A DNA stretch of 36,916 nt, taken from Candidatus Omnitrophota bacterium. Lineage in GTDB: Bacteria; Omnitrophota; Gorgyraeia; Gygaellales; Profunditerraquicolaceae. Below the pieces are notes generated by a model. The model did not search any database. It was not told the origin of the DNA and saw nothing but the letters and a program-made list of their open reading frames with translations. The translations under genes were made by a program, and so were the position numbers. Shown one piece after another: positions 4,844 through 29,291 of the stretch; the stretch's first letter is position 1, and each line of letters opens with the position of its first letter. Where the stretch lies: NCBI GenBank assembly GCA_026387455.1, contig JAPLLR010000026.1:1-36916 (forward strand), read 5' to 3'.

Positions 4844-6060
4844 TGAAACCCGCGCGCGTTGTCATCACAGGCATAGGAGTTGTATCCTCCATCGGTATCG
4901 CAAGGGAGGCTTTCTGGAAGGCGCTTTGCGCCGGAACTTCAGGTATCAGCGAAATATCGGGTTTTGACACTGCAGAGTTTTCCACCCACCTGGGCGGCGA
5001 GATCAAGAATTTTGATCCCGCTCTTTTTTTATCCTCACAAAAAATAAAATCAATGGGCCGGGCTTCCCAGCTGGCTATTGCCGCGGCATCTCTGGCGATC
5101 AGTGATTCTAAAATAAAACTCAATCAGGAAGCTTGTTCAAATATGGGCGTTGCCTTGGGCACGACTATGGGAGAGTCACAGGCTTTTCAGAAAATCAATG
5201 AGGGCTGGATAAAGAGTAAAGATAGAGCGATAGATCCTATGCGCATACAGATATTACCTACGGATAGCCTTTCTAGAAATGTTGCGCAGGAATTTGGTTT
5301 ATGCGGGCCGGCATATGTGATACCTACTGCTTGCGCAGCCGGCAATTATGCTATCGGCTATGCTTTCGACCGTATTCGCTCAGGGGAATCCGGGATGATG
5401 TTGGCAGGAGGGACGGACGCATTCTCGCGTATCGCTTTTATCGGTTTCAACCGATTACTTGCGATAGCTCCGGAAAAGGTGCAGCCTTTTGACAAGTTTA
5501 GGAAAGGGATGATGGTCGGCGAGGGCGCGGGAATAGTGGTGGTTGAGCCGCTGGAGAGCGCCTTAAACAGGGGTGCTGTGATATATGCCGAAATTCTTGG
5601 CTACGGTCTAAGTTGTGACGCGCATCACATGACCGCACCATATTCTGAAGGGATCGCTGAGGCGATTGCCAAGGCTCTTAAAGAAAGCGGTATCAATGCG
5701 CAAGATGTGGATTATTACAACGCCCACGGCACAGGTACGCCTGCAAACGATAAAGAAGAGTGCCTGGCGATAAAGAAAGTTTTTGGAGATAATTATAAGA
5801 AGTTGGCGGTAAGCTCAATTAAATCTATGCTCGGACATACTATGGGTGCCGCTTCCGCTATTGAAGCCATCGCTTGTTCTTTGGCGGTCAAGGATGATGT
5901 AATCCCTCCGACCATTAATTTCCAGACACCTGATCCCGATTGCGATATCGACTGTGTGCCTAATACCTGCCGTCAGCAGGAAGTCATTATCGCCCTCAAT
6001 AATGCTTCAGCCTTTGGCGGCAACAACGCCTGCCTCGTGTTAAAGAAGTTCCTCTCTTAA
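4843..6060 (+). CDS. fabF: Active beta-ketoacyl-ACP synthase, FabF-type (KS-alpha)
   Basis: This 405-residue ketosynthase keeps the whole catalytic set: Cys164 in TACAAG, His295 in NAHGTGTP, Lys327 and His332 in KSMLGHT. It would catalyse decarboxylative condensation of malonyl-ACP with an acyl chain. I chose the ATG at 4843, which overlaps the fabZ stop (TGATG), rather than the TTG one codon earlier. The active-site Cys has the same residue number as the Tyr in the degenerate KS at 2206, and the two genes bracket KR, ACP and DH, as expected for a KS-alpha/KS-beta pair. The 3' end overlaps the convergent gene on the minus strand by 21 bp. Confidence 0.9.
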   Translation: MKPARVVITGIGVVSSIGIAREAFWKALCAGTSGISEISGFDTAEFSTHLGGEIKNFDPALFLSSQKIKSMGRASQLAIAAASLAISDSKIKLNQEACSNMGVALGTTMGESQAFQKINEGWIKSKDRAIDPMRIQILPTDSLSRNVAQEFGLCGPAYVIPTACAAGNYAIGYAFDRIRSGESGMMLAGGTDAFSRIAFIGFNRLLAIAPEKVQPFDKFRKGMMVGEGAGIVVVEPLESALNRGAVIYAEILGYGLSCDAHHMTAPYSEGIAEAIAKALKESGINAQDVDYYNAHGTGTPANDKEECLAIKKVFGDNYKKLAVSSIKSMLGHTMGAASAIEAIACSLAVKDDVIPPTINFQTPDPDCDIDCVPNTCRQQEVIIALNNASAFGGNNACLVLKKFLS

Positions 6061-7212
6061 AACCAAATTATTTTTTTCCAGATTCTTCAAAATGGGATCG
6101 AAGTTTTTAGGTTGGATAAATCTGACTAGCGGCCTGCTGAAAAGTTTAAGAAACGGGTTGAATAACTTTACGTAGATGTATAAAGGTATGAGTTTTGCTC
6201 CCAGGCGCAGCTTGGGATGATAATCGGTGATGCCCAAACAATAGTAGCGTATGCCGTTTTTAATGCACCAGTCAATATTCTCGCAGAAGGTAGTGTAATA
6301 AAGGCTATACATGTGGGATATTGTTTTGTCCATACCGATGACTTTGTCTATCAGTATATTGTCTTTTACCAGGCATAAATTAAAAGCAACAATTTCTTTG
6401 CCGGATCTGGTAATGAAGAAACGCGCTGACTCTGGCATGTTTTTCTGGATGTTACGGAAGAATTCAGGGGTGAGTGTTTCAAAACGCACATCTGATTGTT
6501 CAAAATTGCATGTGTATAATTTATAGAGTTCATTTTGTATGGTGAATATATCAGTGAGGACTTCTGTTTTGAGAGTGGCAAGGGAAGCGGTCTTGCGCAA
6601 TTTGCGGCGTAGGTCTTTGCGGGTGCTGGAGCCAAGGCTCTGGATAAAGTCCTCAAGGTTTTTCGCTTTGATCTCAAGGACGGTGTTGGGGAAATTTTCC
6701 ATGCATAGCAATCCGTTTTGTTCAAGCGCAGAGGCAATGTCTTTTTGTCCTTCAGTTAAGTTATAGAAGAGCATGGCTGAAGCACCTGTTTTGGCGGAAA
6801 ATGAGCAAAGGCCGTTTATCGCTTCTCTCATGACCTCGTTTATTAACTCATCGCTAGGTATGCCTATGCGTAATTTCTCAGTCAGTGGGTTTCCTACGAA
6901 GATTATCTTTGTCCACAGAAAGCGGCGCCAGAACTTTTGCACAAAGAAAATTAATTTCTGCAACGGGCCCTGGATGATGGTGGCGAAGGAAAAATCGTTG
7001 ATGAAGAAGGGGATGATGGCGCAGAGCAAGCCGTTTCTTTTGATTAGCGCGTAGTGAAAAGAGAACTCTTTGATCCCGGATTGCTCGATAGTTTTGTGAA
7101 AGCCCCAGCCCTCGATGCAGTCAGGGTCGAAAAGCCTGTCCCAGTCGCTTTTGGGGATATTGTCGATAGTGTCGGTGATAGAAAAAATGAGTTTGCCGTC
7201 GTCTTGGCGCAT
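6040..7212 (-). CDS. GNAT/FemAB-like N-acyltransferase (BioF2-like domain)
   Basis: This 390-residue protein has two halves typical of FemAB/GNAT-fold acyltransferases. The C-terminal half contains the characteristic basic helix STRKDLRRKLRK, then a segment ARFFITRSGKEIVAFNL and the YYCLG strand. Family members transfer an acyl or aminoacyl group to an amine, for example in cell-wall or exopolysaccharide synthesis. It faces the KS genes and overlaps the active KS by 21 bp at the 3' end. A promoter lies directly before its ATG. I infer it may acylate an amine with the product of the KS module; the substrate is unknown. Confidence 0.65.
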   Translation of the reverse strand: MRQDDGKLIFSITDTIDNIPKSDWDRLFDPDCIEGWGFHKTIEQSGIKEFSFHYALIKRNGLLCAIIPFFINDFSFATIIQGPLQKLIFFVQKFWRRFLWTKIIFVGNPLTEKLRIGIPSDELINEVMREAINGLCSFSAKTGASAMLFYNLTEGQKDIASALEQNGLLCMENFPNTVLEIKAKNLEDFIQSLGSSTRKDLRRKLRKTASLATLKTEVLTDIFTIQNELYKLYTCNFEQSDVRFETLTPEFFRNIQKNMPESARFFITRSGKEIVAFNLCLVKDNILIDKVIGMDKTISHMYSLYYTTFCENIDWCIKNGIRYYCLGITDYHPKLRLGAKLIPLYIYVKLFNPFLKLFSRPLVRFIQPKNFDPILKNLEKNNLVLREELL

Positions 7213-7219
7213 AAGCGCT

Positions 7220-7247
7220 AGTATAGCAAAAACTCACCTCCAGACAA
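7220..7247 (-). promoter_or_regulatory. Predicted promoter of the GNAT-like gene, leaderless arrangement
   Basis: On the minus strand, -35 TTGTCT (7242-7247) and -10 TATACT (7220-7225) are 16 bp apart. The -10 box ends only 7 nt before the ATG at 7212 and no Shine-Dalgarno sequence is present, so the mRNA should start at or next to the ATG. The -35 box lies inside the left 19-bp direct repeat. Confidence 0.55.
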
Positions 7248-7259
7248 ACAAAAGTTTAC
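7241..7259 (+). repeat. Left 19-bp direct repeat flanking the repeat pair
   Basis: CAGACAAACAAAAGTTTAC recurs at 7672-7690 with one mismatch. The two copies bracket the head-to-head elements at 7261-7423 and 7464-7631. Each copy also supplies a -35 box to the gene on its own side. Confidence 0.75.
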
Positions 7260-7260
7260 T

Positions 7261-7423
7261 TTTAGCGTCTGCCTTGTTCTGTTTCTCGCGGGGGCGCTCG
7301 TTTTGCCCCAGCGTGGCAAAACTTCGCTCGGCCTGCGGACCTCGCCTGCACGCCGAAGGCGGGCGCCGTGCCCGCTCGGTCCTCGGACGCCCCGCTCGAA
7401 ATCAGTCCAAGTCGGCCGCTAAA
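7261..7423 (+). repeat. Structured intergenic repeat, copy A (forward)
   Basis: This is a 163-bp GC-rich foldback element. Outer arms TTTAGCG (7261-7267) and CGCTAAA (7417-7423) pair. Inside them GCGGGG pairs with CCCCGC, and GGACC pairs with GGTCC. An 8-bp side hairpin GTTTTGCC/GGCAAAAC (7300-7307, 7315-7322) encloses the loop CCAGCGT. A second small hairpin holds CGCC/GGCG near 7351-7362. The same architecture recurs in copies B-E with different stem sequences. No gene is supported here: reading frames across it are by-products of GC-rich sequence. Confidence 0.85.
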
Positions 7424-7437
7424 CTAAATATTAGTTT
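7421..7437. repeat. Small palindrome joining copies A and B
   Basis: AAACTAA-ATA-TTAGTTT is a perfect 7-bp inverted repeat at the junction of two oppositely oriented elements. It overlaps the last three bases of copy A. Confidence 0.7.
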
Positions 7438-7463
7438 TAAGCAGATAGATATAGTTCTTCAGT

Positions 7464-7631
7464 TGGCGAGAGATTTGGCTTGGTTTCGAGCAGGGCATGG
7501 AAGCCCCGAGCGGGCATGGTTCGCCCGCTATTACATGCCAGGCGAGAGCGAGGGGCTGGAAATGAGCGTAGGTGCGGCACGCTGGGCCGCACCAAGCGTC
7601 CCTGCGAGAAACAAGACAAGCCGACCAGCCA
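7464..7631 (-). repeat. Structured intergenic repeat, copy B (inverted)
   Basis: This is the same element family read from the minus strand. GGCTTG/CAAGCC, GTTTC/GAAAC, GCAGGG/CCCTGC and AGCCCC/GGGGCT pair as in copy C. The side hairpin is GGTGCGGC/GCCGCACC (7571-7578, 7586-7593), which on the minus strand encloses CCAGCGT. The second side hairpin has a different sequence from A, C and E (GGCATG/CATGCC or AGCGGGC/GCCCGCT). With copy A it makes a head-to-head pair about 370 bp long. Confidence 0.85.
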
Positions 7632-7671
7632 TGAGGTTTGGCGAAAAGTCTTAAGCGACGGATTCGTTTTG

Positions 7672-7690
7672 CAGACAAACAAGAGTTTAC
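7672..7690 (+). repeat. Right 19-bp direct repeat flanking the repeat pair
   Basis: CAGACAAACAAGAGTTTAC differs from the copy at 7241-7259 at one base. Its TTTAC end forms part of the -35 box of the esterase gene. Confidence 0.75.
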
Positions 7691-7713
7691 CTAAAATAAT
7701 TTTGTGTTATAAT
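7686..7713 (+). promoter_or_regulatory. Predicted promoter of the esterase gene, leaderless arrangement
   Basis: TTTACC (7686-7691) and a perfect TATAAT (7708-7713) are 16 bp apart. The -10 box ends 10 nt before the ATG at 7724. No Shine-Dalgarno sequence fits in that gap, so translation probably starts on a leaderless or nearly leaderless mRNA. Confidence 0.6.
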
Positions 7714-7723
7714 AGAGCCCATT

Positions 7724-8560
7724 ATGGAAACGCAAGTTAATAAAGGTTACACATTTTTCCTAAAAGGCAGCGGGTCAAATGCCGTGCTTTTGATCCACGG
7801 AATTACCGGCACGCCTTCGGAGATGCGTTATTTGGGTAAGTCGCTGAACAAGGCTGGTTATACGGTTTTCTGCAATACTCTGCCCCGGCACTGTAGTACT
7901 TTGAGCGAGCTTAAGAAGGTGACCTGCGAAGAAATAGCCGATTTCTGCGAAAAAGACCTCAAGCAGCTTAAGAAAGAACACGAGAAGGTATTTGTTGGTG
8001 GCATTTCCATGGGAGCTTTGGTCGCCGCGCACTTGGCTTATAAATTTCCGGAGGATGTATCCGGGATCATCGCTTTTGCCCCAACGCTATTTTACGACGG
8101 CTGGGCCTTGCATAAGGGCAAGATATTCCTGAATCTCGTTTGGTCGATCCCGTTATTGAGGAACGCTATAGATATAAGAGAGGGCTGGCCGTACGGCTTA
8201 AAAGATGAAGAGCTTCGCTATAGCATTGAGAGGTTTTATAAGAACGCAAGTTCGCGTGAGTTTAGTAAGAAGGTTTTGCTTTTCGGCAGCCCATTTTTTC
8301 CGCTGGCCTGCCTTTATCAACACCGCCGTTTCGCCGAAGTAGTCAAAAAAGAATTGTTCTTAGTAAAGACTCCTATTTTAATTATTCATGCAGAAGAAGA
8401 CGACATGACCAGCCCTAAGAACGCACGCTACATCCTTGAGCATATCGGCTCAGGCGATAAGCAGCTGGTGATGTTGGATGATAGTTACCATATGATAGTC
8501 ATCGATAAGCAGAAAGACCTAGTAGCGCAGGAAACCTTAAAATTTCTTAACAGATTATGA
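7724..8560 (+). CDS. Alpha/beta hydrolase, carboxylesterase (Est30-like)
   Basis: This 278-residue protein has the oxyanion region LLIHGITGTP, the nucleophile elbow GISMG with Ser95, a likely acid Asp in HAEEDDMTS and a likely His in DSYHMIV near the C-terminus. These fit a serine esterase or thioesterase of the Est30 / monoacylglycerol lipase group. It overlaps the CrtI-like gene by 4 bp, so the two are co-translated. In this setting it could release or trim acyl chains made by the KS module. That role is inferred; a general carboxylesterase is also possible. Confidence 0.75.
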   Translation: METQVNKGYTFFLKGSGSNAVLLIHGITGTPSEMRYLGKSLNKAGYTVFCNTLPRHCSTLSELKKVTCEEIADFCEKDLKQLKKEHEKVFVGGISMGALVAAHLAYKFPEDVSGIIAFAPTLFYDGWALHKGKIFLNLVWSIPLLRNAIDIREGWPYGLKDEELRYSIERFYKNASSREFSKKVLLFGSPFFPLACLYQHRRFAEVVKKELFLVKTPILIIHAEEDDMTSPKNARYILEHIGSGDKQLVMLDDSYHMIVIDKQKDLVAQETLKFLNRL

Positions 8561-24330: not shown

Positions 24331-24339
24331 TAATTATAT

Positions 24340-24370
24340 TTAGCGCCTACCTTGCCCTGTTTCTCGCGGG
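24340..24370 (+). repeat. Partial repeat end preceding copy C
   Basis: TTAGCGCCTACCTTGCCCTG and the following TTTCTCGCGGG match the left end of copy A (7261-7291) with a few changes. The full copy C begins 6 bp later and repeats the TTTCTCGC segment, so this is a truncated, nested or displaced left end. Confidence 0.6.
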
Positions 24371-24375
24371 ACTCA

Positions 24376-24536
24376 TGGCGGGTAGGCTTGTCTTGTTTCT
24401 CGCAGGGACGCTTGGTGTGGCCCAGCGTTGCCGCACCTGCGCTCATTTCCAGCCCCTCGCCTGCACGCCAAAGGCGTGCGCCGTGCCCGCTCGGGGCTTC
24501 CATGCCCTGCTCGAAACCAAGCCAAGTCTCCCGCCA
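24376..24536 (+). repeat. Structured intergenic repeat, copy C (forward)
   Basis: This is a 161-bp foldback. Pairs from outside in are TGGCGGG (24376-24382) with CCCGCCA (24530-24536), GGCTTG with CAAGCC, GTTTC with GAAAC, GCAGGG (24402-24407) with CCCTGC (24505-24510), and AGCCCC (24451-24456) with GGGGCT (24493-24498). Side hairpins are GGTGTGGC/GCCGCACC (24414-24421, 24430-24437) and GCACGCC/GGCGTGC (24463-24469, 24473-24479). It shares the outer stem with copy E but the inner blocks with copy B. Reading frames through it are not believed to be genes. Confidence 0.88.
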
Positions 24537-24577
24537 ACCGAAGCTTTCAGTCAAGGGTGACAATGGTCGCTTTGAGC
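24524..24577 (+). repeat. Left 54-bp direct repeat of the accessory island
   Basis: This covers the right end of copy C, the spacer AAGCTTTCAGTCAA and the first bases of a following inverted element (GGGTG, CGCTTTGAGC). It matches 26076-26130 at about 48 of 55 aligned positions. The following bases lose similarity, so this is a truncated second element. Confidence 0.7.
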
Positions 24578-26075: not shown

Positions 26076-26130
26076 AAGTCTCCCGCCAACTAAAAGCTTT
26101 CAGTCAAGGGTGCCGAGGATCGCTTTGAGC
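26076..26130 (+). repeat. Right 55-bp direct repeat of the accessory island
   Basis: This matches 24524-24577: the CTCCCGCCAAC right end of a forward element, the AAAGCTTTCAGTCAA spacer, and the start of an inverted element. Here, unlike the left copy, the inverted element continues intact as copy D. Confidence 0.7.
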
Positions 26131-26267
26131 GGGGCGTCCGAGGAACCGAGCGGGCATGGATCACCCGCTATTTAAATACTAGGTGAGAGCGAGGTCCGCA
26201 GGCCGAGCGAAGTTTTGCCTCGCAGGGGCAAAACGAGCGCCCCCGCAAGAAGCGAGCCTCGGCACCC
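26108..26267 (-). repeat. Structured intergenic repeat, copy D (inverted)
   Basis: This 160-bp foldback has an outer stem GGGTGCCGAGG (26108-26118) with CCTCGGCACCC (26257-26267), 11 bp perfect and unrelated in sequence to the outer stems of A, C and E. Next inside, CGCTT pairs with AAGCG and GCGGGG with CCCCGC. The side hairpin is GTTTTGCC/GGCAAAAC (26212-26219, 26227-26234). The second side hairpin is AGCGGG/CCCGCT, as in copy B. The fold is kept although the basal stem is different. Confidence 0.87.
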
Positions 26268-26303
26268 ACTGCTTAAAGCAATAGTAGCTAGCGCTATTAT
26301 CTA

Positions 26304-28974: not shown

Positions 28975-28983
28975 TTGGTCTCA

Positions 28984-29144
28984 TGGCGGGTGGGCTTGTT
29001 TTGTTTCTCGCGGGGGCGCTCGTTTTGCCCCTGCGAGGCAAAACTTCGCTCGGCCTGCGGCCCTCGCCTGCACGCCGAAAGCGTGCGCCATGCCCGCTCG
29101 GGTCCTCGGACGCCCTGCTCGAAACCAAGCCAAGCCTCCCGCCA
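28984..29144 (+). repeat. Structured intergenic repeat, copy E (forward)
   Basis: This 161-bp foldback has outer pairs TGGCGGG (28984-28990) with CCCGCCA (29138-29144), GGCTTG with CAAGCC, and GTTTC with GAAAC, as in copy C. The inner blocks are of the A/D type: the side hairpin is GTTTTGCC/GGCAAAAC (29022-29029, 29037-29044) with loop CCTGCGA, and GGCCC pairs with GGGTC. The second side hairpin is CACGC/GCGTG (29071-29075, 29081-29085). Confidence 0.88.
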
Positions 29145-29166
29145 GTTGAAGAGGCTCAATTGGTAG

Positions 29167-29244
29167 GTTTAGCGGGTGACTTGGTCTGATCCGAGCACGG
29201 CCATAAGCCGCGCGCAGGACAGGCCAAGGCAGGACCCGCTAAAC
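29167..29244. repeat. Second foldback element beside copy E
   Basis: GTTTAGCGGGT (29167-29177) and ACCCGCTAAAC (29234-29244) are perfect 11-bp inverted repeats. Inside, TTGG-CTG-TCC pairs with GGA-CAG-CCAA through small bulges, and CGGC/GCCG forms a terminal hairpin near 29198-29210. The outer arm resembles the TTTAGCG arm of copy A. It sits where the other loci have a second, inverted element. Confidence 0.7.
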
Positions 29245-29291
29245 AATAACAAAAATTAGTGCTTAATTGAGGCGAAAGTGCCTTTATTTAT

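Follow-up and report, generated by a model that had tools for sequence, protein, structure and literature searches.

The window analysed here is a 36,916-nucleotide stretch of DNA from a bacterium of the phylum Omnitrophota, whose genome of 1.68 Mb is assembled in 72 contigs and is 90.7% complete. A FemAB-like/GNAT-fold acetyltransferase gene (6040..7212, minus strand; PF04339, PF13480) and an alpha/beta hydrolase gene (7724..8560, plus strand; PF12146) diverge there from an intergenic spacer of 511 bp. This spacer holds a 412-bp block (7260..7671) composed of an element A, a linker, an element B and a tail, which the first-pass annotation had described as framed by two 19-bp direct repeats. 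Both repeats are present, CAGACAAACAAAAGTTTAC at 7241..7259 and CAGACAAACAAGAGTTTAC at 7672..7690 on the plus strand, the right copy differing from the left by a single A to G change (1/19). A and B had been read as inverted copies of one element, and one and the same profile does match A on the plus strand (about 7261..7424; nhmmer 8.7e-38) and B on the minus strand (about 7456..7640; nhmmer 2.2e-40). Both are thereby seen to belong to a family of ~170-bp imperfect palindromes of Omnitrophota. The outer stem of B is unlike that of A, being of the CTCATGG... type, and the pair folds into a single long hairpin (-221.6 kcal/mol, z -9.6). The palindrome AAACTAAATATTAGTTT (7421..7437), proposed as the symmetry axis of the pair, proved on direct reading to be a small hairpin with 7-bp arms (AAACTAA-ATA-TTAGTTT) that marks the inner end of A and the start of the linker. 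The framing by the 19-mers holds closely on the left, where A begins 1-2 bp past the repeat, but not on the right, where ~33 bp of mostly unique sequence separate B from the repeat. Only the first few bases of this tail (7641..7671) match another copy, C10; the remainder is unique in the genome and is possibly filler.

Promoter-like sites were observed on both sides of the block by consensus scanning, where 0.5 such sites are expected in shuffled sequence. The predicted FemAB-like promoter (TTGTCT-16-TATACT, 7247-7220, minus strand) matches the consensus at 9/12 positions and the predicted hydrolase promoter (TTTACC-16-TATAAT, 7686..7713, plus strand) at 10/12. Each 19-mer had been said to supply the -35 box of the gene on its side, and the predicted sites fall exactly in this way, with TTGTCT on the minus strand of the left copy and TTTACC on the plus strand of the right copy. 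The -35 boxes match the consensus at just 4/6 positions each; TG precedes the -10 box in both promoters, and since both -10 boxes are thus of the extended type, the -35 boxes may matter less. The -10 box of the FemAB-like promoter is conserved in 12 aligned relatives, and TGTGNTATAAT of the hydrolase promoter is also conserved in relatives.

The divergent FemAB-like/hydrolase pair is kept in 16 distinct relatives, which were pooled from a whole-genome search and from named contigs, all named relatives being Omnitrophota. The genus of the window consists of this genome alone, and its nearest relatives share ~50% (FemAB) to 72% (hydrolase) protein identity. The spacer between the two genes measures 64-120 bp in 15 of the 16 relatives, with a mode of 78-86 bp, and 248 bp in the remaining one. 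In that relative (L067 and L105), an independent and unrelated palindrome, ACAGATGATCACAG...CTGTGATCATCT, lies between the hydrolase -10 box and the start codon. Elements A and B and a second 19-mer were looked for in the spacers of all 16 relatives and found in none. Subtracting 431 bp (the 412-bp insert and one 19-mer) from the 511-bp spacer of the window leaves 80 bp, which lies inside the modal range. The window flanks, when joined, align with 12 relatives across both -10 boxes (TATA.C and TGTG.TATAAT), and this alignment displays a single core, ACAA..AAAA.TTTA. One relative (L063) reads TAGACAACATTAAAATTTACAATA, in which both -35-like boxes occur once each, and its core, like that of a second relative (L065), reads AGACAA...TTTACA. 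Relatives therefore carry an empty site with one promoter core where the window has two, and this difference identifies the event as a 412-bp insertion accompanied by a 19-bp duplication. Insertion into a divergent promoter with a long target duplication, as first suggested, is accordingly a well supported reading of the A/B locus.

The 19-mers themselves speak for the same reading. They are not common in the genome but confined to this site: a search allowing up to three mismatches returned both 19-mers and one three-mismatch site on another contig, and a reversed control returned nothing. The direct repeat at the A/B flanks scores 16, whereas none of 3000 mismatched control flank pairs scored above 12. 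It had also been proposed that the 19-mers are a duplicated promoter part kept by selection, and in its full form, in which selection assembled or retained two such operator or promoter elements without any insertion, we consider this very improbable. Each copy does provide one -35 box, one for each gene, as such an account would have it, and in the weak sense that the duplicated segment contains both -35 boxes the proposal stands. However, the core occurs once in relatives, the motif has no other copy in the genome, and the halves of the 19-mers that no longer serve a promoter are kept as well as the others (18/19 overall). The equal conservation of these now useless halves indicates that the duplication arose at insertion rather than being built by selection, while the 1/19 difference between the copies implies that the insertion is not brand new. 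A misjoined contig, assembled through repeats A and B, is the least likely of the explanations considered. A and B are repetitive, and such repeats lie at or close to the ends of several contigs in the assembly, but the flanking genes are adjacent in 16 relatives, so the flanks belong together, and the linker and tail are unique sequence.

Given these observations, we think it very probable that a ~80-bp divergent promoter was invaded by the 412-bp A/B block and that a staggered, 19-bp opening of the target and its fill-in duplicated the promoter core. In this scheme, the ancestral promoter between the FemAB-like and alpha/beta hydrolase genes would have received a block in which two copies of a dispersed, hairpin-forming Omnitrophota DNA element lie inverted to each other. 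The target would have been opened at positions 19 bp apart, and gap filling would have duplicated the core with its two back-to-back -35 boxes. The FemAB-like gene would then keep the left copy with TATACT and the hydrolase gene the right copy with TATAAT, so that two formerly overlapping promoters would now be separated by ~430 bp that include a very stable hairpin block. As the 19-mer spans both -35 boxes, duplication gave each predicted promoter its own; with both boxes in the same 19 bp before insertion, one gene would have lost its -35 box had no duplication occurred. Retention of both boxes by duplication plausibly explains why the insertion was tolerated. Less expected in this event are how long the duplication is and its coincidence with both -35 boxes.

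The description of the insert as a composite element holds as a description only, because A-linker-B was not seen as a unit elsewhere and long duplications are not family-wide. The latter point comes from a test for flanking repeats of ~7 bp or more, run on 33 and then 103 other copies against mismatched-flank controls. Among the 103 copies, scores of at least 9 were obtained for 3 against 1.1 expected, and scores of at least 7 for 23 against 13.7 expected, a slight excess of 7-11 bp repeats. Long target duplications as a regular hallmark of the family were rejected on this near-control level, and the 7-11 bp excess is compatible with duplications that are short, decayed or variable. Since long flanking repeats are not general and no partner transposase was found in a search of Y1 transposases, the staggered cut with its fill-in, and the enzyme behind it, are steps that we infer. 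The 19-bp stagger could come either from transposition whose stagger is long and variable, or from break repair that captured a fragment. Capture in the strict sense, in which a ~19-nt staggered break in the promoter was repaired with a 412-bp fragment holding two hairpin repeats and then filled in, is possible but doubtful. It would account for a duplication that is exceptional for the family, for the ~33-bp tail, which sets the right end of the insert off the element end and counts against the transposition-like reading, and for the A-linker-B unit not being found elsewhere in the genome. Against it, the left end of the insert lies within 1-2 bp of the end of element A, and hairpin repeats make up a small fraction of the genome, so that chance capture of exactly two whole copies is unlikely. 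In addition, the 90.7% complete genome yielded no Ku gene, and Ku-based end joining was rejected on that ground.

Insertion of the A/B block draws attention to the family from which its two elements come. The source genome has ~20 further loci besides A and B, and at least 18 near-complete copies altogether. Three further copies lie in the window, at 24375-24537 (region 24339-24543), 26124-26267 (region 26108-26272) and 28983-29145 (region 28980-29250). Two of these are composite, one joining half of A to B and the other joining A to a second palindrome of ~75 bp. The latter, TTTAGCGGGTGACTTGG...CCAAGGCAGGACCCGCTAAA (29160-29235 in the window), is also present on contigs C69, C22, C66, C51, C44 and C36; in approximately eight clusters it recurs beside element A, separated from it by a short linker, a mosaic arrangement resembling BIMEs. 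The family was detected in 69/108 genomes and 41/60 genera of the same taxonomic family, and in 51/384 genomes of a phylum sample (E<=1e-8) that included other families, orders and classes. No match was obtained in plasmid records, and a plasmid origin was set aside for this reason. Nothing relevant to an Omnitrophota hairpin repeat was found in the literature searched.

The element is ~170 bp long, palindromic, not A+T-rich and intergenic, and has inverted terminal repeats in the form of an outer stem, TTTAGCG..CGCTAAA. An alignment of 54 sequences supports 41 pairs in five helices, with 90.9% of cells paired and compensatory changes at 35 of the 41 pairs; in helix 1, 84% of cells are paired and 18/20 pairs have a compensatory change. 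Double changes number 241 against 66 in shuffles, a value reached by 0/500 shuffles. Pairing collapses when the alignment is slid by one column, a control that leans in favour of the structure because the latter was derived from the same alignment, partly as an RNAalifold consensus and partly by hand. Three species (L059:1495, L165:1313 and L134:1307) share an orthologous site at which the outer stem is wholly different in sequence and still self-complementary. In several genomes (L044, L048, L051 and L049), another repeat, with GAATCTGGCGGTTTTCGAGCGAATGGAGGTTTTAGCCAAAGCAGCTTGAGTGAGCGAGGG in variants, directly adjoins the element in its 3' flank.

Copies are located in spacers, and their orientation among co-directional neighbours is mixed (46 vs 34). 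Where a gene stop faces the 5' end of the element, the two are separated by a median of 13.5 bp, and some element ends overlap the stop. In seventeen cases, two copies from different genomes lie between the same two flanking genes. The spacer that recurs most often, whose neighbours we take by reading, not by profile, to be cysS and tmk, is occupied in five genera (L176, L131, L188, L137 and L042), with orientation 4 vs 1. Downstream of a 330-aa gene in genus g55, presumably queA (likewise by reading, not by profile), different hairpin types occupy the same spot in different species among 21 genomes, and the spacer is too variable across species for a duplication to be measured. In L221, L223, L226, L227 and L232, the hairpins there (TTTAGCGGG...CCCGCTAA) often start with the TAG stop codon of the 330-aa gene. 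Shared spacers of this kind resemble places where the element lands repeatedly or is retained.

Conserved pairing of this extent could reflect selection on RNA, which should favour GU over AC mismatches. At the 32 best-supported pairs, GT accounts for 28 and AC for 21 of 1715 cells; when copies are oriented by co-directional neighbour genes, the counts are GU 22 vs AC 22 of 1460 cells, and 95% are Watson-Crick. Equal GU and AC in transcript orientation points to a palindrome maintained as DNA, through a folded substrate or arm-to-arm correction. This suggests, as a reading of base-pair counts rather than proof, that the element is folded DNA and not an RNA. We regard as improbable the alternative that selection placed these hairpins here as members of a functional RNA family, whether of terminator, regulatory or stability RNAs. 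The strongly conserved secondary structure, the very stable folds, the many copies adjoining stop codons and the occupation of the same gene spacers across genera are all compatible with it. However, there is no GU preference, orientation relative to genes is mixed, no intrinsic-terminator-like site was found within the insert, and the insert lies between two divergent promoters, where transcription is not expected. Rfam covariance models also gave no match to the element beyond a chance-level hit to MIR6440 (22 bits; gathering score 95), and a known RNA family was rejected as its identity. In the same models, Bacteria_small_SRP (RF00169) matched 0/59 genomes of the taxonomic family and 11/14 control genomes, and the family may use another form of SRP RNA.

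Candidate mobilising systems were considered for the folded-DNA element. A scan of 31 Y1 transposase loci by nhmmer found the element at 0/31, and co-occurrence of Y1 genes with the element is uncorrelated (Fisher p=0.59), Y1 transposases being common; a Y1/RAYT transposase was therefore rejected as the mobiliser. The genome's single Y1 transposase gene (G000 C62:9403-9732, L108) sits between inverted GGGACACTTCC motifs, forming a RAYT-like unit unrelated to A/B. Integron attC sites were rejected on reading, as the terminal motifs depart from the known attC core consensus.

Taken together, the A/B locus offers a clear natural example of repeat insertion at a shared promoter core, the most tightly constrained position in a compact genome; the insertion may have been made tolerable by the very duplication of its target. 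The insertion event is of a known kind; less expected is the phylum-wide hairpin family that it brings to light, apparently a DNA-level one. Conserved pairing with no sign of RNA selection makes the spread and persistence of long palindromes in uncultured bacteria testable. As a tentative view, the phylum-wide ~170-nt family could be mobile and consist of folded single-stranded or cruciform recombinase substrates, paired at the DNA level, that settle by stop codons and in compact promoters, sometimes with long duplications, and that here split an overlapping promoter into two working ones.

Several known systems resemble the Omnitrophota element in part. IS1634 and IS1549 generate long, variable target duplications of 8-514 bp for which there is no mechanistic model, and are members of a family whose transposase-coding elements measure 1.5-2 kb (PMC2266710). 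The A/B site shares the long duplication, but no such end sequences or transposase are linked to it. MITEs such as ERIC, Correia/NEMIS and RUP have TA termini and regular duplications (PMC2229807). Like them, the Omnitrophota element is short and non-coding, has inverted ends, is dispersed in intergenic spacers and can insert near promoters; unlike them, it lacks TA termini and regular duplications, and a search of Y1 transposases identified no parent insertion sequence. REPs measure 20-40 bp (PMC3733652), and REP/BIME palindromes are intergenic and flank RAYT (Y1) transposase genes (PMC2817692). The Omnitrophota palindromes are likewise intergenic, form mosaic composites of inverted copies and presumably act as folded DNA, whereas their unit is ~170 bp and none of the 31 Y1 loci carries one. 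IS200/IS605 elements make no larger target duplications (PMC2817692), so that an insertion of this type is not expected to leave the 19-bp duplication present at the A/B site. The closest described analogue, by description rather than sequence comparison, is YPAL (RU-2) of Yersinia, a 168-bp, palindromic, intergenic element that is not A+T-rich and has no TA termini, and whose mobility was shown by empty and filled sites with variable target duplications of 3-26 bp (PMC2229807). The Omnitrophota element agrees with it in length, palindromic form, base composition, intergenic location and absence of TA termini. Comparison of empty and filled sites gave a 19-bp duplication at the A/B locus, and flanking repeats at other copies were in weak excess. 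The Omnitrophota element differs in that a long duplication was seen at one site only, in its inverted ends (TTTAGCG..CGCTAAA) and compensatory changes across genera, and in belonging to another phylum, throughout which it is distributed, also in mosaics.
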